Assembly: GCA_021848465.1 (NCBI GenBank)
Contig: JAJZUP010000003.1
Span: 1 to 64,000, forward strand
Source of the DNA: Pseudomonadota bacterium
Lineage (GTDB): Bacteria; Pseudomonadota; Gammaproteobacteria; Burkholderiales; Gallionellaceae
DNA: 64,000 bases
Direction: 5' to 3'
Positions 50,332 through 61,674 of this stretch are shown here, in pieces (within the stretch, counting starts at the first letter, position 1; every line of letters begins with the position of its first letter). Under the pieces are notes generated by a model. The model did not search any database and was not told where the DNA came from. It saw only the letters and a program-made list of their open reading frames with translations. Made by a program: the position numbers and the translations under genes.

Positions 50332-52362
50332 ATGTCAGCCGGACTACTCTTAGCGTTATGCTGCGCTTTCGCAGCCATCGTATATGGAGCAATCTCGATC
50401 CGCTGGATCGTTGCATTACCGGTGGGTAACGACAAGATGCGCAGCATCGCGGCCGCCATCCAGGAAGGCGCCACAGCCTACCTGAACCGCCAGTACCGCA
50501 CCATCAGTCTGGTCGGAATTGTCCTGTTCCTGGCCATCGGGTTCGCGCTCTCCTGGAAAACCGCAATCGGCTTCGTGATCGGCGCCATACTGTCCGGCGC
50601 TGCCGGCTACATCGGCATGAACGTTTCGGTGCGCGCCAATGTGCGCACCGCCCAGGCAGCGCATGACGGCCTGAACAGTGCATTGAATGTGGCGTTCCGC
50701 GGCGGCGCAATCACCGGCATGCTGGTGGTCGGCATGGGCCTGCTCGGGGTGGCCGGGTATTACGCGATACTGGCCGCCACGGCGACGGAAGGCAGCAGCA
50801 CGATGCAGATTGTCGAGCCGCTGGTAGGTTTGGGTTTCGGCGGATCGCTGATTTCGATTTTCGCGCGTCTGGGCGGCGGTATCTTCACCAAGGGTGCGGA
50901 CGTCGGCGCGGACCTGGTCGGCAAGGTTGAAGCCGGCATCCCCGAGGACGATCCGCGCAACCCGGCCGTTATTGCCGATAACGTCGGCGATAACGTTGGC
51001 GATTGTGCCGGCATGGCGGCCGACCTGTTTGAAACTTACGCGGTCACCATCATCGCCACGATGCTGTTGGGCGGCATGCTGATGGGGCACGCCGGCAGCA
51101 ATGCGGTGATCTATCCACTGGCGCTGGGCGGCTTCTCGATCATCGCCTCGATCATCGGCAGCTTCTTTGTGTCCGCGCGGCCGGGCGGCAAAATCATGAA
51201 CGCACTGTATCGCGGGCTGGCCGTTGCCGGCGGTCTCTCGCTCGTTGCGTTCTACCCGATCACCTCCTGGCTGATGGGCGACAACGGCTCCTATTCGGTA
51301 CTGGCGCTGTACGGCGCTGCCATCATCGGGCTGCTGCTCACCGCGGCGATGGTGATCATCACCGAATACTACACCGCCACTGAACATGATCCGGTGCACC
51401 ATATCGCGATGGCCTCCACCACCGGCAGCGGCACCAACATCATTGCCGGCCTGGGCGTTTCCATGCGCTCCACGGCCGCTCCGGTCATCGCCGTGTGTGC
51501 CAGCATTTACGCGGCTTATGAGCTGGCTGGCCTGTATGGCATCGCCATTGCCGCCACCTCGATGCTGTCGATGACCGGCATCATTGTAGCCATCGATGCC
51601 TACGGTCCGGTTACCGACAATGCCGGCGGCATCGCCGAGATGTCCGGCCTGCCCGAAGAAATCCGCAACATCACCGACCCGCTCGACGCGGTCGGCAACA
51701 CGACCAAGGCCGTCACCAAAGGCTATGCGATCGGCTCTGCCGGCCTCGCCGCGCTGGTGCTGTTCGCCGACTACACTCATGCGCTTGAAGCGCATCTGGG
51801 GCAGCCCACGCTGTTCGACCTGTCCGACCATATGGTCATCATCGGCCTGTTCATCGGCGGCCTGGTGCCTTACCTGTTTGCCGCAATGGGAATGGAAGCC
51901 GTCGGGCGCGCCGCTGGAGCAGTCGTGGAAGAGGTGCGGCGCCAGTTCCGCGAAATCCCCGGCATCATGGCCGGCACCGGGAAACCCGATTATTCAAAGG
52001 CGGTCGACATGCTAACCAAGGCCGCTATCCGGGAGATGCTGGTTCCATCCCTGCTGCCGGTTGCGGTCCCGATCATCGTCGGACTTACGCTGGGTCCCAA
52101 GGCGCTGGGCGGGGTGCTGGTCGGCGCGATCATTACCGGCATTTTCGTGGCTATCTCGATGACCACCGGCGGCGGCGCCTGGGACAATGCCAAGAAGTAT
52201 ATCGAGGAAGGGCACTATGGCGGCAAAGGCTCTGACGCCCACAAGGCTTCAGTCACCGGGGATACGGTAGGCGACCCCTACAAGGACACGGCCGGCCCCG
52301 CGGTCAACCCGCTGATCAAGATCATCAACATCGTAGCTTTACTGATTGTGCCTTTGCTGTAG
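50332..52362 (+). CDS. hppA: H+-translocating membrane pyrophosphatase, K+-independent type
   Basis: 676 residues, about sixteen membrane helices. The catalytic loop [19 protein letters not shown] and [20 protein letters not shown] is intact. [10 protein letters not shown] has lysine where potassium-dependent enzymes have alanine, indicating independence of K+. It pumps protons using PPi, or makes PPi from the proton gradient. AGGAG precedes ATG. Confidence 0.96.
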
Positions 52363-52391: not shown

Positions 52392-53339
52392 ATGAACAAG
52401 TTACTTCTGGTGGACGATGAACAACACATACTGGATGCCCTGCAGCGCGAGCTGCACGGCCTGTTCGGTTTCGCCTCCTTTACCAGCCCGGAATCCGCAC
52501 TCGAATTCAGCAAACGCAATCCGGTTGAACTGGTAATTGCCGATTACAAGATGCCGGGGCTGAACGGCCTGGATTTCCTCAAGCAGTTCGGCCAGTTACA
52601 GCCGGATGCCGCGCGCATCGTGCTGAGCGGCGAGGCAGACATAGACGTTTTGCTGCGCACCATCAACGAGTCGCACATCTACCGCTTCATCTCCAAACCC
52701 TGGGAACGCAGCGAGCTGCTGAGCAACATCCAGCAGGCACTGTCCTACCGCCACACATTACTGGAAAGTCGCCAGCTCGCGGCAACGCAGTCAGCCCAAG
52801 GCGCGGAAGACTCCCCATACTGCATCGCGCTGGTTGAAAGCGACCCGCACTTGCTGGCAATGATGGCCCGCGGCCTGGACGATGAAAGCGGTCGCGACAG
52901 CCTGTATGGCGCGATGCAGCAGGAGCTCCAGCAAAGTGGCCGCCCAGCCCGGTTTTGCTGCTATGTCGCCACATTCCGGAACGGGCACGATGCCATCGAC
53001 TACATCAGCCGCAACCGTTGCGACCTGATGATCACTTCGCAAAACCTGTCCGACATGAGCGGCACCGAGTTACTGAGCGCACTGCGCAAAACGGCCCCGC
53101 ATGTTGCACGCATCCTGGTCGATGCTTCGCCCAACAAGGCGACCGTGTCTCAAGCCATCAATGATGCGGAGGTGCAAAACCTGCTGCTGCTGCATTGGGA
53201 TCAGCATGAGCCGCGTGTCGATTTGCGGCGGCAGTCCTGGAACCTGTACCAGCTCAAGCGCGCCGCCATGCAGGCGCTGGCCGAACGCGAATTGCAACAC
53301 CCCGGCATCAGGCAGATGGCATTGTTTCCAGCGCCTTGA
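52392..53339 (+). CDS. double receiver-domain protein
   Basis: 315 residues from MNKLLLVDDEQHILDALQ, chosen because AGGAGG lies just upstream. The first receiver (residues 1-120) is complete: DDE, the phosphoacceptor in IADYKMPGLNG, and the lysine in RFISKPWE. The second (about 140-275) is degenerate: IALVESDPH keeps only part of the acid pocket and ITSQNLSDMSG lacks the aspartate. No output domain. It overlaps the convergent kinase gene by 32 bases. Confidence 0.88.
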   Translation: MNKLLLVDDEQHILDALQRELHGLFGFASFTSPESALEFSKRNPVELVIADYKMPGLNGLDFLKQFGQLQPDAARIVLSGEADIDVLLRTINESHIYRFISKPWERSELLSNIQQALSYRHTLLESRQLAATQSAQGAEDSPYCIALVESDPHLLAMMARGLDDESGRDSLYGAMQQELQQSGRPARFCCYVATFRNGHDAIDYISRNRCDLMITSQNLSDMSGTELLSALRKTAPHVARILVDASPNKATVSQAINDAEVQNLLLLHWDQHEPRVDLRRQSWNLYQLKRAAMQALAERELQHPGIRQMALFPAP

Positions 53340-55068
53340 CCGGCAGCCAGATACGCATGCGGGTTCCCTTGCCGATCTCGCTATGCACCTCGAAGCGACC
53401 GTGATGCTTCTTCACGATCCCGTACGATAACGACAGTCCCAGCCCGGTCCCCTGCCCCACCGGCTTGGTTGTATAGAATGGCTCGAATATACGATTGACA
53501 TTCTCCGGCGCAATGCCCTTGCCGGTATCTTCGATTTCCACCCAGACCTCTTCGTTTTCCGCGCCGGTGCGGATGGTGATCACGCCCTTGTCCTCGATCG
53601 CCTGCGCCGCGTTCATCAGCAGGTTCATGAACACCTGATTGAGCTGCGAAGCCATGCAATAAACCTGCGGCAACTCGCCAAATTCCTTGATGACCTGGCA
53701 TTTGTACTTCAGCTCATTCCAGACGATATTCAGGGTGGACTCCAGCCCCCGGTGCAGGTCGGCCCATTTCCAGCCATCCTCCCCGACATGGGAAAAGTCC
53801 TTCAGGTCCTGCACGATCTTGCGCATGCGCATCAGCCCATCCCTGGACTGCGCCATCAACTGGAAAATATCCTGCTTGATATAGTCGTAATCCTTTTCCT
53901 TTTTGAGCCGCCCTACCTGCACCAGCTCCTGGTTCGCGCATGCTTTCTGCTCAAGCGCATCATAAGCCGCCATAATCGAAAAAATGTCATGCAGGTAGCT
54001 TTCCAGCGTCCCCATGTTGGAGTAGACGAAGCCGATCGGATTGTTCAACTCATGCGCAACCCCCGCAGCCAATTGCCCCAGCGAGGCCATCTTTTCCGAT
54101 TGCACAAGCTGGTTCTGGGTCTCCTCCAACCGGTGGTTCAGGGCTTTCTGTTGCTCAAGGTTCTGCGCCAGCTCGGTTTCGACGCGCTGGCGGCGAATGA
54201 TGCGCCACATATCATTGCCGAATAACTGCGCAATCTCGACATCCGCATCCTCGTAGTTGCTCTCTTTATTGCCGACGCCGAGGATAACCCGCACCTTGTC
54301 GCCCTCGATCACCGGGACGCTGATCAGCCGTACCAGCACCGAATGTCCTTCCGGCAAGCCGTGCTTACTCGGATAAGCCGCGTAATCGTTGAAAATCACC
54401 GGCCTGCGCTGACGCATGCAATCAGCCCATATCCCTGCCTCTGCCAGCGGGTAATGGGTGTCGTAACCGGCTTTGCAAAATTTCTCCCGGGTCGCGGCTG
54501 ACCAGGCCACCAGCTCGATGGTCTGCTGGTCATCGTTGACGAAATGGATGAATGCGATCTGGCTGCTGGTCAACCGCTCCACCCATTCGAGACCGAACTG
54601 CATGAACTCCTTTTCAGTCAGTAACGCAGCCTGTTCGTGCAACTTGAGCAAGCCCTCGATACGCCTGGCGTTCTGCTCCAACCCTGTGCGCATCAGGTAA
54701 CGCTGGGAAATGTCGCGCACGATGCTCTGCAAGTAGCGCCGGCCGCCGTACTCGAATGCGCGCGAGCTCACCTCCACCGGAAAAATGCTGCCATCACGCC
54801 TGCGGTGCCGGGTCTCAAAAATCGCGCCGGACTTCAGCACCATTTCCAGCTGCTTGGGCGCATCCTCCAGCGTCGACGGGTCACGCAGGTCGCGCACATT
54901 GCGCGTCAGCAACTCGTCCTGGCTCCAGCCATAAGTGCGCTCCGCCACGTCATTGATTGCAAGAATATTCCCCTGCAAATCCAGCAACACAATAATGTCA
55001 TTGGCCATGCGCGGCCAAAATCCAAACTGCTCCCGCAATCGTGCCAGGCTGTCATCTGGATTACTCAT
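53308..55068 (-). CDS. PAS-GAF sensor histidine kinase
   Basis: 586 residues. PAS (about 17-135, DLQGNILAINDVAERTYGWS), GAF (about 150-300), phosphorylation helix with SLGQLAAGVAHELNNPIGF, and an ATP-binding domain with VFMNLLMNAAQAIEDKG and GTGLGLSLSYGIVKKHHG. No membrane segment, so it acts in the cytoplasm. It overlaps the hemerythrin kinase by eight bases, in the same direction. Confidence 0.93.
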   Translation of the reverse strand: MSNPDDSLARLREQFGFWPRMANDIIVLLDLQGNILAINDVAERTYGWSQDELLTRNVRDLRDPSTLEDAPKQLEMVLKSGAIFETRHRRRDGSIFPVEVSSRAFEYGGRRYLQSIVRDISQRYLMRTGLEQNARRIEGLLKLHEQAALLTEKEFMQFGLEWVERLTSSQIAFIHFVNDDQQTIELVAWSAATREKFCKAGYDTHYPLAEAGIWADCMRQRRPVIFNDYAAYPSKHGLPEGHSVLVRLISVPVIEGDKVRVILGVGNKESNYEDADVEIAQLFGNDMWRIIRRQRVETELAQNLEQQKALNHRLEETQNQLVQSEKMASLGQLAAGVAHELNNPIGFVYSNMGTLESYLHDIFSIMAAYDALEQKACANQELVQVGRLKKEKDYDYIKQDIFQLMAQSRDGLMRMRKIVQDLKDFSHVGEDGWKWADLHRGLESTLNIVWNELKYKCQVIKEFGELPQVYCMASQLNQVFMNLLMNAAQAIEDKGVITIRTGAENEEVWVEIEDTGKGIAPENVNRIFEPFYTTKPVGQGTGLGLSLSYGIVKKHHGRFEVHSEIGKGTRMRIWLPVKALETMPSA

Positions 55069-56593
55069 GCGCCCCTCCCGCTGAATGTTTGACCGGCAGA
55101 TAGACGCGCACCACGGTTCCCTTGCCCGGCTCGCTCTTTACCTCAATGCGCCCATTGTGTTTCTGCACAATCGCGTAAGACACGGACAAGCCCAGCCCCG
55201 TCCCCTGCCCGACCGGCCTGGTGGTGAAAAATGGCTCGAATATCCTCGGCAAATGCTCGGGTGCAATTCCCCTTCCGGTGTCTGCCACCTCGACCCAAAC
55301 CCGATCACCATCAAGCCCGGTACTGATGGCGATACTGCCACGCCCCTCAATCGACTGCGCCGCATTCAGCAGGATGTTCAGCAGCACCTGCCGGATTTGC
55401 TGCGGCACACATTCGATTTCCGGCAGCCCCGCGTATTGCCTGCTGACCCCGGCCTTATACTTGATCTCGCCATCCAGCACATTGAGCGTGCCATCCAGGC
55501 ATTGCTCAAGGCTCGTCTTTTGCCATTCCGTCACCTCGGGCTGGGCGGCGCCTTGCAAGTCGAGCACGATCCGCTTCACGCGATCGAGTCCGTCGCGAGA
55601 CTCAACGATCAGTTTGGAAATGTCCTCGTACAGGTAATCCAGGTCAACCGCCTCCTTGATCTCCTGCACTTGTGCGCGCGCGTCATTTTCCAGGCGCGCC
55701 TCTATTCCCGCATACACGCCCAAAACTTTGCGAATATCGGCGACATACCGCTCCAGGGTTGCCATATTCGACAACACGAAACCCAGGGGATTATTGATTT
55801 CATGGGCCACTCCGGCAGCCAGCTGACCGACCGCCGCCATCTTTTCGGAATGCAGCAACTGCCCCTGCGCAATCTCCAGCCGCTGGTTGGCCTGTTTCAA
55901 TTCGAGATTGCTTTGCGCCAACTGGCGGTTGCTGCCCTCCAGTTCTTGCGTGCGCCGGGCCACCCGTTGCTCAAGCTGCTCATTCAACTCACGCAAAGCC
56001 GCCCGTTCCTGTTCCAGCGCCCGGTTGACCTGCATCACCTCGACGGTTTTTTCGCCAATCTTGCCGTACAGCGCATTCAGCGCCTCCATCAGAACTTCGC
56101 CGCCATGGGACACGGTGGCCGCCGCCTCGCGCTCTGCCTCCTCGTGACTCCTGCCGGCCTGCAGCGCCAACAACTCGCGCCCCAACCGCTGGTCAACCAC
56201 CATGATGTGCTGCAACAGCCAGCGCGTCAGGTAGTCGAGCAACTGCGGCAGCATGCTGGCCGCACTCCCTTCCGAATTCCGGATCATCCCGACAGCCAGC
56301 GCCGCCTGCTTGCGGAAGGCATCGTGCGCCTTGAAATGAACCTCCTGATGGTGCGCGCTGACGGCATATTGGCGCATCATCTGCTCCTCAGTACCGAAAT
56401 GGTAAACCGTGTATTCAAGCAGTTCGTCCAGCACCGCCTTGATGGCTGAAACATCGGCACCCGGCATGCACAAATCGCCGACACGGTTGATCAGCCCGAT
56501 CAAGTGACGATGCTGCTCATCGACATCCGTGATCCCGGTTGCCAGGCGGTCGCTCCAGACAAATGCACTGAAACCCGATGCGGAACTGTCCAT
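55061..56593 (-). CDS. hemerythrin-domain histidine kinase
   Basis: 510 residues. The N-terminal 140 form a bacteriohemerythrin: GITDVDEQHRHLIGLIN, YHFGTEEQMM, HHQEVHFKAH and LLQHIMVVDQRLG supply the His/Glu/Asp ligands of a di-iron oxygen site. A coiled coil (about 170-245), phosphorylation helix (AVGQLAAGVAHEINNPLGF) and ATP-binding domain (GTGLGLSVSYAIVQKHNG) follow. Probably senses oxygen or redox state and signals to the HD-GYP regulator encoded 3 bp upstream. Confidence 0.94.
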   Translation of the reverse strand: MDSSASGFSAFVWSDRLATGITDVDEQHRHLIGLINRVGDLCMPGADVSAIKAVLDELLEYTVYHFGTEEQMMRQYAVSAHHQEVHFKAHDAFRKQAALAVGMIRNSEGSAASMLPQLLDYLTRWLLQHIMVVDQRLGRELLALQAGRSHEEAEREAAATVSHGGEVLMEALNALYGKIGEKTVEVMQVNRALEQERAALRELNEQLEQRVARRTQELEGSNRQLAQSNLELKQANQRLEIAQGQLLHSEKMAAVGQLAAGVAHEINNPLGFVLSNMATLERYVADIRKVLGVYAGIEARLENDARAQVQEIKEAVDLDYLYEDISKLIVESRDGLDRVKRIVLDLQGAAQPEVTEWQKTSLEQCLDGTLNVLDGEIKYKAGVSRQYAGLPEIECVPQQIRQVLLNILLNAAQSIEGRGSIAISTGLDGDRVWVEVADTGRGIAPEHLPRIFEPFFTTRPVGQGTGLGLSVSYAIVQKHNGRIEVKSEPGKGTVVRVYLPVKHSAGGAHE

Positions 56594-56596
56594 TGC

Positions 56597-57910
56597 CTAC
56601 CCCTGCGCTTTCACCCAGAAACTCAGCGCATACTGTTCCAGACGCTCGAACTCAACCATCTGGTCGATCAGCTTCTGGTTCAGCTCGCAATCCTTGAACA
56701 GCAGCAGCAGACCTTCGCGGGTATACACCCCTCGCGTCAGCACCATGCCCGATTTCAGATCGGCAGACTTTACCTCCCGCCCCCCTTCCTCATGGGGCTG
56801 AGTGCCGCCAACCAGCTCCTTGAATGCCTCCACCACCGCCGGGTCATAGCTCTTGCCCCGCCCCTCGATGATGTAGTCATAGGCCTTTACCTGGCTGAGC
56901 GGAGTATTCAACACATTGCCGTACTGCACCGCATCATAATCGTTGGCCACCGCGAGGATGCGCGCACCCAACGGTATGGCATAGCCGGACAAGCCATCCG
57001 GATAGCCGTCGCCATCGAAGCGCTCGTGGTGTGCGCGGATGATGGCCGCCGCGCCCTTCATCTGCTCCAGCGGCAGCAAGGCGGTCTGGGCAATCCTCGG
57101 GTGGCGTTTTAACTGGCTCTTCTCATCCATATTCAAGGCAGGCACCGGTTTGTACAGCAGCTCGTCCGACAAGCCGATCTTGCCAATATCGTGCAGCAAA
57201 CCGGCCAGGACAACATCCTGTATCTCCTCGCCCCCGAGCCCCATGCGTACCGCCAGCTTGCGGGCGAGATCGGCCACGCGCCGGGAATGACCGCTCAGAC
57301 TCCCCGCACGCAACTCCAGCAAGTTGGAAAAGATGCTTACCGACGTCAGGAAGTTTTTACGCAGTTGCTCGTTGCTTTTCTCCAGCTCATGGAATGCCTG
57401 CTGCAACGCCCGGGTACGCTCCATCACCTTGGTTTCCAGGCTGGCATTCAGCACGCGCAACTCGTCATTCTGTTTGCGGGTCAATGCCTCAAGGCGGCGC
57501 TTTTCCTGCTCCAGCGCCTTGCGCTCCATGGCGTCCTTGACCAGCAGCAGCACATCGTGGTCATCCCAGGGTTTGGCAATGTAGCGGTAGATTTCGCCCT
57601 TGTTGATCGCCGCGACGGTCGACTCCACATCGGCATAGCCGGTCAGCAGGACGCGTATGGTTTCCGGCCAGCGCTGGCGCACCTGCTCCAGGAAACGCGC
57701 GCCGTCCATTTCCGGCATACGCATATCGGAAATGACCATATCAACGCGATTCTGCGTCAGCACCTGCAACCCCTCGGCGGCGCTTTGCGCAACCAGCACC
57801 TTGCCGACCTGGCGCCGCAGCAGCCGCTGCAACGCACTCAGCACATTCGGCTCGTCATCCACACACAGAATGACCGCCGGAATTACGCCAGTCGCAGATG
57901 TGGTATCCAT
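56597..57910 (-). CDS. response regulator with HD-GYP c-di-GMP phosphodiesterase domain
   Basis: 437 residues from MDTTSATGVIPAVILCVDDE. Receiver (about 10-125) with DMRMPEMDG and YRYIAKPWDD, a coiled coil (130-185), and an HD-GYP domain with GHSRRVADLARKLA, LLHDIGKIGLSDEL and HHERFDGDGYPDGLSG. RpfG-like enzymes hydrolyse c-di-GMP when phosphorylated. First gene of a three-gene unit with the two kinases. Confidence 0.94.
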   Translation of the reverse strand: MDTTSATGVIPAVILCVDDEPNVLSALQRLLRRQVGKVLVAQSAAEGLQVLTQNRVDMVISDMRMPEMDGARFLEQVRQRWPETIRVLLTGYADVESTVAAINKGEIYRYIAKPWDDHDVLLLVKDAMERKALEQEKRRLEALTRKQNDELRVLNASLETKVMERTRALQQAFHELEKSNEQLRKNFLTSVSIFSNLLELRAGSLSGHSRRVADLARKLAVRMGLGGEEIQDVVLAGLLHDIGKIGLSDELLYKPVPALNMDEKSQLKRHPRIAQTALLPLEQMKGAAAIIRAHHERFDGDGYPDGLSGYAIPLGARILAVANDYDAVQYGNVLNTPLSQVKAYDYIIEGRGKSYDPAVVEAFKELVGGTQPHEEGGREVKSADLKSGMVLTRGVYTREGLLLLFKDCELNQKLIDQMVEFERLEQYALSFWVKAQG

Positions 57911-57967
57911 CAGGTGCAGGCCTATTAACGGGATGCGGCATTGTGCAGCCAAACAATCCCCCCGGCA

Positions 57968-57985
57968 ACCTGAAAATTATCAGGT
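57968..57985. promoter_or_regulatory. inverted repeat in divergent promoter region
   Basis: ACCTGA and TCAGGT separated by six bases, in the 130-bp space between the HD-GYP regulator and the EAL protein. A TAGTATATT sequence starting at 57985 could be a -10 for the plus strand. The repeat may be an operator. Confidence 0.35.
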
Positions 57986-58040
57986 AGTATATTGGCTTAG
58001 AAGCCAGTTTCAGCTTTTTCCGGGAGTGCGAGGGAGGGAA

Positions 58041-61000
58041 ATGGAACACACGATACCGCACGACACTGCCATGCTGCTAGGCAACCAGATTCTGCATAAC
58101 TCGCCAGCGCTGCTGTGGATTTTCATGGTCACGGAATTCATCATCCTGGCCGCCTACCTGGCCATCCCGTTCATCCTGCTGCATTTCATCCCGCAATTCA
58201 GGGAACCGACATTCAAGCGCTCGTTCCGCCTGTTTTCGGCCTTCATCATCGCGTGCAGCTTTACCCAATACCTTGACATCTGGCTGCTCTGGCATCCTGA
58301 CTACTGGTTTGCCGCTCTGGCTCATATCGTCACCGCATCATTGGCCCTGGCTTCAGCCTATTTGCTTTGGCGCATTGTTCCACGCGCCCTCGGACATCCC
58401 ACCAACAAGGATCTGAAGAATACCGTCCTTGAGCGCACCGACTCGCTGAACCGCATGACCAGCTTCTACGCGGTATTAAGCCAGGGAAATTCGGCGATGG
58501 TCCACGCCCAGGACCGGCAAAGCCTGCTGGAAAATATTTGCGAAGCGATACTCGGATTTGCGGGATTCAAACTGGCCTGGATCGGCCAGGAAGCTGTCGA
58601 CCAAAGCGTCATGCCGATCGTTATCCGAGGTTCGGCCAGCGACTACATCGCTGCGATTCGGCTTTCGACACGCTCCGACCTGCCGGAAGGCCTTGGGCCT
58701 ACCGGTACGGCCATCCGCGAAAACCGCATTATCGTCGTAAATAACTTCCAGACCTCCGGCCTGACCCGGCTCTGGCATGACGCAGCCTTGCGCCATGGTG
58801 TGTTCAGCAGTATTTCCCTCCCGATCACCGCGCCCGATTTTCGTGGTGCGTTGATGGTGTATGCCGACACGGAAAATTTTTTCGAAGCGGAAATAGTCGG
58901 CCTGCTGAAAGGTCTCGGCGACAACATTTCCTATGCACTGGAGCGCTTGCACCTGACTGAGCTGAAAGAGCGGCAGGAAATGGAACTCAGGCTGGCGGAC
59001 CGGGTGTTTGCTTCCAGTTCGGAAGCCATGATGATTACCGACATGAACAACAACATCATTCGCGTCAACCAGGCATTTTGCGACATCACCGGCTTCTGGG
59101 AGGAGGAGGTTCTGGGGAAAAACCCGCGCATCCTGAAATCCGGCAAGCATGACGCGACGTTCTACCGCATCATCTGGCTGCACCTGCTGCTGCAAGGTAG
59201 TTGGCAAGGCGAAATATGGAATCGGCGAAAAAATGGTGAAGTGTTTCCGGAGTGGGTCAGCATCAACCAGATCAAGAATGCCAATGGCAAGGTTACCCAT
59301 CACTTTGCGATTTTTTCCGACCTGCTGCAGAAAAAAGCCATCGAGGAATTGAATCACCTGAAGCACTACGATCCGCTGACTGACCTGCCCAACCGCACAT
59401 TGCTGGAAGACCGCATTGAGCGCGCCATCGCCCATGCCCAGCAGTATGACCGCTTCGTCGGCCTGATGTTCATGAACCTGGATCACTTCCATACCGTCAA
59501 CGATACGTTTGGGCATATGGCTGGCGACAAGATGCTGATCGTCACCGCGCAGCGCCTGGTCAAGGCTATCCCGGCCAACGCTTCGGTAACCCGACTCTCG
59601 GCCGATACCTTTGTCATTGTCCTGCCCGACCTGAACACCAGCGCCGAGATCAACCGCATTGCCGAAATCATCAACCAGCAGGTGTACCTGCCCTTCATGC
59701 TGGATAACCAGCAAGTACAGCTCTCTGCCTGCATGGGCATTTCGGTTTACCCACTGGATGGCAAAGACGTCAATGCACTGATGCAGCATGCCGACGTTGC
59801 GCTGAGCGATGCAAAAAAGTCCGGCAGCAGGAACAATTACCATTTCTACTCCTCCAGCATGAATGAGCATGCGCGCAAGCTGGTCACCATGAGCAGCGAG
59901 TTGCGCAACGCCATCGAACACGGCGGGCTGGTGCTCCATTACCAGCCGCAGGTCGACATCGTATCCGGCGAAATCGTCGGCGCCGAAGCACTCATCCGCC
60001 TCAAGGATGCCCGCGGCGAGCTTACCTCCCCGGTGGAGTTCATCTCCGTGGCAGAAGAAACCGGACTGATCCTGCCGATGGGCGAATGGGTACTGCGCGA
60101 AGCCTGCCGGCAGATGAAGCAATGGCACGATACGGCGCATTCCGTGCTGGTGATTGCCGTCAACCTCTCGCCGCTGCAGTTCCACCAGAGCAGCCTGATG
60201 CACATGGTCAAGGACGCGCTGGAACAGTCCGGCCTTCCTCCGCAGTACCTTGAGCTTGAATTCACCGAAAGCGCGATCATCCGCAACGTGGGCGACACCA
60301 TCCCGATTATGGAGAGCCTGCGCGAAATGGGCATCCACCTGTCGATCGATGACTTCGGCACCGGCTATTCCAGCCTCGCCTACCTGAAGCGCTTCCCGGT
60401 CGACAAGCTGAAGATCGACCAGTCCTTCATCGCCAATATCAGCCAGAGCCCCAGCGATGCGGCAATCGTCCAGGCCATTATTGCGCTCGGTCGCACGCTT
60501 GGCATGACCACCATCGCCGAAGGCGTTGAAACCGAGGCCCAACTGGGATACCTGCGCTCGGTGCATTGCAAGGAAATCCAGGGCTACCTGTACAGCCCGC
60601 CACTTCCCGCCGATGAGTTCGCCAAACTGCTGCTGCGCGGCAAGAAATTAAGCAATAACGAATCGGGGAAAACCCTGTTGCTGGTGGACGATGAGGAAAA
60701 CGTGCAAATGTCGCTCAAGCGCATCCTGCGCCGCGAAGGCTACAGTATCCTGACCGCATCGAGCGCCGAAGAGGCGCTCGAGCTGCTTGCCGAGAACCCG
60801 GTGCAGGTCGTGCTCAGCGACCAGCGCATGCCCGGCATGAGCGGCGTCGAGCTGCTGCGCCGCGTCAAGAGCATGTACCCGAACGTCGTGCGCATCATCC
60901 TGAGCGGGTATACCGAGGTCGGCACGCTCACCGACGCCATCAATAAAGGCGAAATCTACCAGTTCATCACCAAGCCCTGGGAGAATGAGGCGCTGATCGC

Positions 61001-61055
61001 GCTGCTGCGCGAAGCCTTCATCCGCCATGAGATGCTGACCCGCAGCCCGCAGTAG
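58041..61055 (+). CDS. ethylene-receptor-like membrane-GAF-PAS-GGDEF(degenerate)-EAL-REC protein
   Basis: 1004 residues from [14 protein letters not shown], with AGGGAGGG upstream. Three membrane helices in residues 25-125 ([34 protein letters not shown]) follow the pattern of the ethylene/Cu(I)-binding domain of plant and cyanobacterial ETR1-like receptors, but the copper-binding CxxxH is CSFTQ here. GAF (about 150-305) and PAS (310-435) follow. The GGDEF site is [12 protein letters not shown], so the cyclase is inactive. The EAL domain is intact ([30 protein letters not shown]). A complete receiver (880-1000; [17 protein letters not shown]) ends the protein. Predicted c-di-GMP phosphodiesterase. 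Confidence 0.9.
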
Positions 61056-61125
61056 CGCGGTGCTGCCTTTCGCCGCGCGCAATGCTACAATTCCGGCCTT
61101 TCATTTACACGCAAGGGCCTGCATC

Positions 61126-61674
61126 ATGAGTTTGAACAAAGTTCCGTCCGGCAAAGACCTCCCCAACGATTTCAACGTTGTCATCGAGATCCCGATGCAC
61201 GGCGAGCCGATCAAGTATGAAGTGGACAAGGATTCCGGCGCGATCTTCGTCGATCGCTTCATGAGCACCGCGATGCACTACCCCTGCAACTACGGCTATA
61301 TCCCGCACACCCTGTCCGACGACGGCGATCCGGTGGACGTGCTGGTAGTCACTCCCATCCCTCTGCAAATCGGCGTTGTCGTGCGCTGCCGCCCGCTGGC
61401 GGTGCTGAAGATGGAAGATGAGTCCGGCGTTGATGCCAAGCTGCTGGCCGTTCCCGTGGACAAACTGACCACCGTTTACCGCAATGTCAAATCCCAAGCC
61501 GAGCTGCCGGAAATCCTGCTGAAGCAGATTGAACACTTCTTTGCCCATTACAAGGACCTCGAGCCGAACAAGTGGGTAAAGATCACCGGCTGGGACGGTA
61601 TTGACGCGGCTCGCCAGGAAATCATGGCTGGCGTGGCAAACTATCAGAAGGCTGCGATCAAACCCGAGTTCTAA
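61126..61674 (+). CDS. ppa: inorganic pyrophosphatase (family I)
   Basis: 182 residues from [16 protein letters not shown]. Active-site run [23 protein letters not shown] with the metal-binding aspartates. Soluble, hydrolyses PPi. Its presence beside PPi-dependent pfp and hppA means the cell must control how PPi is divided. TACAAT at 61086-61091 is a possible -10. Confidence 0.97.

Follow-up and report, generated by a model that had tools for sequence, protein, structure and literature searches.

The 64,000-nt stretch analyzed here (the window; positions 1 to 64,000 of contig JAJZUP010000003.1 from a Gallionellaceae genome of 2.43 Mb in 8 contigs, 85.8% complete) harbors a gene that joins an ETR1_N membrane domain to a chain of GAF, PAS, GGDEF, EAL and receiver domains (Table 1). 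The gene begins with an ATG at 58041, directly preceded by a purine-rich stretch, and its frame is open throughout. A promoter scan of 57850-58100 found no promoter-like site on the + strand, and a profile search of the genome returned no second ETR1_N match. The gene facing it encodes an RpfG-like REC-HD_5 protein, whose copies at the syntenic loci L088, L089 and L084 share 68.6%, 69.1% and 62.8% identity, respectively, with the window version. Behind REC-HD_5 lie two kinase genes. L088 and L089 have the hemerythrin kinase at about 64% identity and the PAS-GAF kinase at about 70%; L084 matches the hemerythrin kinase at 63% over 291 aa, up to the end of that stretch. The hemerythrin kinase, kept beside REC-HD_5 in L088 and L089, might supply the locus with an oxygen or iron signal. 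Also, a membrane H+-pyrophosphatase (50332-52362) and a soluble inorganic pyrophosphatase (61120-61674) flank the signalling cluster.

Table 1. Positions of the gene, its domains and key residues, and of the neighbouring signalling genes in the window
Feature	Residues	Position	Strand	Evidence
Whole gene, ETR1_N-GAF-PAS-GGDEF(SADTF)-EAL-REC	1004 aa	58041..61055	+	ORF, translation, Pfam
ETR1_N membrane domain	24-117	58110..58391	+	Pfam 79.9 bits; genome search 84.9 bits
E32, at ETR1 D25	32	58134..58136	+	Profile alignment
C72, at ETR1 C65, Cu ligand kept	72	58254..58256	+	Profile alignment
Q76 (codon CAA), at ETR1 H69, Cu ligand replaced	76	58266..58268	+	Profile alignment
H95 (codon CAT), at ETR1 K91	95	58323..58325	+	Profile alignment
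GAF domain	157-301	58509..58943	+	Pfam GAF_2
PAS domain	328-428	59022..59324	+	Pfam PAS_9
Degenerate GGDEF domain	442-596	59364..59828	+	Pfam
SADTF motif	520-524	59598-59612	+	Motif invariant in five aligned module members
EAL phosphodiesterase domain	620-854	59898..60602	+	Pfam 255.5 bits; aligned to 4rnh, 5m3c, DosP
C-terminal receiver (Response_reg)	880-989	60678..61007	+	Pfam
REC-HD_5 (RpfG-like), divergent neighbour, ATG start		56597..57910	-	Pfam on 56597-57898
Hemerythrin-histidine kinase, behind REC-HD_5		55061..56593	-	Pfam
PAS-GAF-histidine kinase, behind hemerythrin kinase		53308..55068	-	Pfam

The membrane domain matches Pfam PF25487 (E 1.8e-22) far above chance and far above the curated cut-off of 27 bits, which places it in the ETR1_N family. 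The initial annotation, made from the letters alone, had proposed such a domain together with SADTF in place of GGDEF, an intact EAL domain and a C-terminal receiver, and all of these are borne out. An AlphaFold2 model built on a 4-row alignment (mean pLDDT 70.4, pTM 0.53) predicts long helices at residues 22-52, 56-84 and 88-117 in addition to a short one at 7-20, and thereby gives, with moderate confidence, the three membrane helices of an ETR1-type receptor. A Foldseek search of the PDB with this model reached a best E of 0.88, and the membrane domain, searched by sequence against the PDB, returned one weak, unrelated match (E 0.012).

ETR1 positions were placed by profile alignment, and the columns were read from AzoEtr1 of Azospirillum brasilense (L092), whose D35/C75/H79/K98 correspond to ETR1 D25/C65/H69/K91 according to PMC11819568. 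Read in this way, the window residues at the copper and ethylene positions of ETR1 are E32, Y39, I42, P43, I69, C72, Q76 and H95. The initial annotation had described a Cys...Gln pair where the Cu(I) ligands should be Cys...His, and the AzoEtr1-anchored alignment agrees, with C72 on C65 and Q76 on H69. Two changes beyond that description accompany it, Glu for D25 (E32) and His for K91 (H95), the former common to the window protein, its three nearest relatives (L002, L003 and L006) and a few others. Furthermore, Gly66 is replaced by Ser (G66S), and the HGxC motif that precedes helix 1 in 92 of 107 domains is missing, the window protein having IPHDTAML there.

The copper site is stated as D25, C65 and H69 in PMC12643061, and mutation of C65 or D25 in ETR1 abolishes ethylene binding (PMC11819568). 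D25 is also predicted to position H69 and to contact K91 (PMC11819568), so positions 25, 69 and 91 should lie close together. Of the seven residues required to bind ethylene, five are kept (Cys, Tyr, Ile, Pro and Ile), D25 and H69 being Glu and Gln. No special retention of the pocket was seen in this, as 19 of the 27 columns with conservation of 80% or more are kept overall. Among the 16 columns conserved to at least 90%, the window domain retains 12, and L002, L003 and L006 retain all 16 each.

A first survey covered 112 distinct domains from the protein's own family, its class and phylum, cyanobacteria and plasmids, taking in those aligned by profile at E 0.001 (L016 and L019, for example, fall outside). 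For the cyanobacteria, where 136 of 242 genomes were positive, the best 30 scoring loci were used together with the loci of 8 hand-picked low-scoring genomes; 11 of 16 plasmid records entered. Cys65 is present in 102 of the 112 domains, Lys91 in 93 and His69 in 106, the last not an unbiased frequency given that the sample is skewed to high-scoring cyanobacterial domains. A lack of conservation at the Cys position, which had been named at the outset as evidence against an ETR1-like site, is therefore not what the homologues display. Within the Gallionellaceae, 16 of 158 genomes have an ETR1_N match, 15 of them above the cut-off. The alignment, from which the two matches below the cut-off (L016 and L019) are absent, shows Cys...His in each of the family's 16 further above-cut-off domains, which makes it most likely that the histidine was lost on the line leading to the window protein.

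Later searches found matches in 27 of 349 genomes at the order level and in 101 of 146 genomes of one alphaproteobacterial genus, from which 31 regions were added for their low scores. The resulting 194 distinct domains are purposely enriched, and the counts are not frequencies: 151 are Cys/His, 26 Cys/Arg, one Cys/Phe (L169) and one Cys/Gln (the window protein), the other 15 showing further combinations or gaps. Gln69 and His91 each occur in the window protein only, among the 112 and again among the 194, and the idea of Gln69 as a recurrent class was rejected. The 26 Cys65/Arg69 domains (L060, L061, L201-L203, L205-L222, L224, L225, L230 and L231) each come from a different genome of the alphaproteobacterial genus; D25 and K91 are kept in them, Tyr32 is Phe (Y32F), and I35, P36 and I62 are mostly altered. 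The two Cys/Arg proteins that were checked are HisKA-HATPase histidine kinases. That this class is maintained in one genus indicates that His69 can be lost while the protein is retained.

The pairing of positions 25 and 91 is strongly skewed in the 194-domain table. D25 stands with K91 in 156 of 165 rows and N25 with K91 in 0 of 15, N25 pairing with Asp, Arg, Glu, Tyr or Gly and never with Lys. Examples of such charge changes at the predicted D25-K91 pair are N25/D91 (L009, L010, L012, L014, L015, L017, L029 and L228), N25/R91 (L162, L164, L169 and L172) and S25/D91 (L100). Independent-pairs tests on the 107-row and 189-row trees, with only 2 and 3 supported pairs to draw on, gave no significant coupling. 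Among other sequence collections, one scan of viral_contigs found no relative, and a scan of genome_contigs gave four loci, namely L020, which is the same gene as L084, and three cyanobacterial ETR1_N domains.

The cytoplasmic half of the protein is a family module with interchangeable N-termini. The GAF-PAS-GGDEF-EAL-REC arrangement recurs in L084, L087, L088 and L089, all of the same family, with 61-68% identity to the window module. In front of it, L084 has two receivers and L087 CBS repeats, to which L088 and L089 add a PAS domain. RLSADTF and NLDHFHT are invariant in all five aligned members, and the degenerate GGDEF is therefore an old trait of the module. An active diguanylate cyclase has GG(D/E)EF and a metal-binding Asp; here SA takes the place of GG, and in NLDHF Asn replaces the metal Asp, a second altered site beyond the initial annotation, both changes being present in all five members. 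The dead GGDEF may, as the initial annotation proposed, sense GTP: the N of VND/VNE and the D of GD, which we take to be the guanine contacts, are kept in all five, but the GG and the metal Asp are changed as described. The catalytic residues of the EAL domain (EAL, N, E, DD, K, E and Q) are identical to those of 4rnh, 5m3c and DosP, and this agreement with active-enzyme structures counts for a predicted active phosphodiesterase. The receiver retains the acidic pocket as well as the phospho-acceptor Asp, the Ser and the Lys.

Rates of change differ along the protein. Its membrane domain is 43.3-46.2% identical to those of L002, L003 and L006, which are 76.5-80.8% identical among themselves. 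Domains shorter than 85 aa were excluded from the trees (5 of 112 for the 107-row tree and 5 of 194 for the 189-row tree), and for the 98-row tree 13 named long or odd rows, every locus with a number beyond L172 and three quarters of the L108-L137 loci were dropped as well. When columns 25, 69 and 91 are masked, the window domain groups with L002, L003 and L006, whose states are Glu25, Cys...His and K91, both in the 107-row tree (SH-aLRT 99) and in a careful 98-row tree (support 80/98.6). In the quick 189-row tree it lies away from them, beside L151 and L025 (support 84). Its end branch measures 1.48, 1.19 and 1.17 in the 107-, 98- and 189-row trees, and those of the three probable sisters measure 0-0.17 in the first two; given such long branches, its position in the tree is unsure. 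The rest of the protein, from residue 139 on, has an end branch of 0.26, with 0.21 for L084, 0.20 for L087 and 0.18 plus 0.02 for L088/L089, and is not accelerated. Fast change is thus confined to the sensor domain.

The gene facing REC-HD_5 differs among the syntenic loci. It is the phosphodiesterase in L088 and L089, and in L087 as judged from an 82-aa match at a contig edge. In L084 an ETR1_N-PAS gene faces REC-HD_5, separate from and upstream of the phosphodiesterase; after it, in the same orientation, come a hybrid kinase, an OprD porin, another hybrid kinase and the REC-REC phosphodiesterase. This cluster (L084:3517-18588), in which the copper site is canonical, may be a sensor-to-c-di-GMP relay. 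The corresponding window gene joins ETR1_N and the phosphodiesterase in a single frame, and gene order suggests a fusion of an ETR1_N gene with the enzyme. In the simplest history, an L084-like cluster would have collapsed, its first and last genes fusing while the kinases and the two receivers were removed, and a sensor that perhaps once acted via a relay would have been wired directly to the enzyme. This scenario is weakened by the unstable place of the membrane domain in the trees.

Taken together, we lean, with moderate confidence, toward reading the window protein as a presumably active EAL phosphodiesterase with a non-canonical membrane input that has ceased to be a Cu(I)/ethylene receptor. 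Support for this comes from the replacement of H69, kept in most of the surveyed domains, the loss of HGxC, the long ETR1_N branch beside an unaccelerated enzyme half, and the occurrence of the module with other N-termini at a syntenic locus. An ETR1-type three-helix input would sit on a membrane-bound c-di-GMP phosphodiesterase (GAF-PAS-dead GGDEF-active EAL-receiver), and the departure from Cu(I)/ethylene chemistry would consist in the exchange of H69 for Gln, of the helper pair D25/K91 for Glu/His and in the absence of HGxC; ethylene would no longer be bound through copper in the known way. The membrane domain may set EAL activity via a coiled linker, regulation presumably running in that direction, and GAF, PAS and receiver phosphorylation, perhaps by the neighbouring kinases, may act jointly with it. 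The dead GGDEF would most likely have a structural or allosteric role. As a copper-holding residue is replaced, the sensor probably detects something other than ethylene, or merely anchors and regulates the enzyme. A different small ligand or another metal site, as the initial annotation had suggested, is possible, and fast evolution with the loss of HGxC, K91 and G66 fits a simple loss of copper and ethylene binding equally well. Several points weigh against the favoured reading: only one sequence of the variant is known, and conservation of C72, Q76 and H95 is not demonstrable from it; five of the seven ethylene residues are kept, although this is no more than the domain-wide retention; the 189-row tree does not recover the sister grouping; and the membrane domain could be a bare anchor.

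That last possibility, a vestige that anchors and dimerizes the enzyme while binding no ligand, with signals entering through GAF, PAS and receiver only, seems unlikely to us. The confinement of fast evolution to the membrane domain and the disappearance of several conserved features speak for it, but the open frame, the three long helices predicted and the 12 of 16 highly conserved columns retained speak against it. A rebuilt site appears slightly less likely still: the histidine would have left position 69 on helix 2 for position 91 on helix 3 (H95), C72 and H95 would hold Cu(I) close to E32, and the site would still accept ethylene or some other small ligand. The loss of H69 and the gain of His at K91 in the same protein, each unique among the 194 domains, the retention of C72 and four other pocket residues and the closeness of positions 25, 69 and 91 expected from PMC11819568 all suit it. 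However, the variant is a singleton, HGxC is lost, and general acceleration makes coincidence likely. The more specific proposal that the second Cu(I) ligand moved from H69 to H95, and that a Cys72-His95 site beside Glu32 directly gates the phosphodiesterase, perhaps with a ligand different from ethylene, is speculative and we give it little credence; if true, the metal site of the ETR1 fold would be open to change.

An ordinary copper-dependent ethylene receptor that tolerates Gln at 69 would explain the five retained residues (Cys, Tyr, Ile, Pro and Ile), but we regard it as very improbable, since PMC12643061 counts H69 among the copper-site residues, all but six domains of the first survey keep it, and D25 and K91 are changed too. 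A sequencing or assembly error at Gln76 is hardly believable, for although a single base turns His into Gln and the genome is incomplete and in 8 contigs, the frame is intact and K91H, G66S, the missing HGxC and the low identity to the nearest relatives are independent of that base.

A bacterial protein with an ETR1_N domain is easily assumed to be an ethylene receptor. Variants in which Cys is kept and His lost, such as Gln in the window, Phe in L169 and the Arg class, suggest that the fold does more than ethylene sensing, and they can serve as naturally occurring controls for the copper site. According to PMC11819568, c-di-GMP falls in response to ethylene in Azospirillum through a pathway that the paper calls unknown. 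The L084 cluster and L232, both with a canonical site, could directly show an ethylene-c-di-GMP link, of which the window protein would be the altered-site counterpart. No report of an ETR1_N domain without His69, or of an ETR1_N-phosphodiesterase fusion, was found in the available parts of PMC11819568, PMC6586836, PMC12643061 and PMC6682694, most subscription journals lying outside the search.

Among known systems, ETR1 of Arabidopsis, SynEtr1 of Synechocystis and AzoEtr1 of Azospirillum share with the window protein the three-helix ETR1_N domain and five of the seven residues, including the Cys ligand. They differ in that the window protein has Gln instead of the His ligand, Glu at the D25 position and His at the K91 position and lacks HGxC, and in output, which is a histidine kinase in the ethylene receptors and a phosphodiesterase here. 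The nearest architecture is L232/L007 (genome G113, same family; L232:1040-3586), an ETR1_N-PAS-GGDEF-EAL-CZB protein with an added zinc-binding domain. It likewise places ETR1_N on GGDEF-EAL, but has a canonical site (D, Y, I, P, I, C, H and K) and an intact RLGGDEF, and lacks the GAF domain and receiver; the architecture as such is therefore not new. L084, L087, L088 and L089 have the same enzyme module under different N-termini (receivers, CBS, or CBS and PAS). The motility regulator 4rnh, 5m3c and DosP share the tandem GGDEF-EAL arrangement and the EAL catalytic residues, and DosP also a degenerate GGDEF, whereas the SADTF motif, the ETR1_N input and the C-terminal receiver are features of the window protein.
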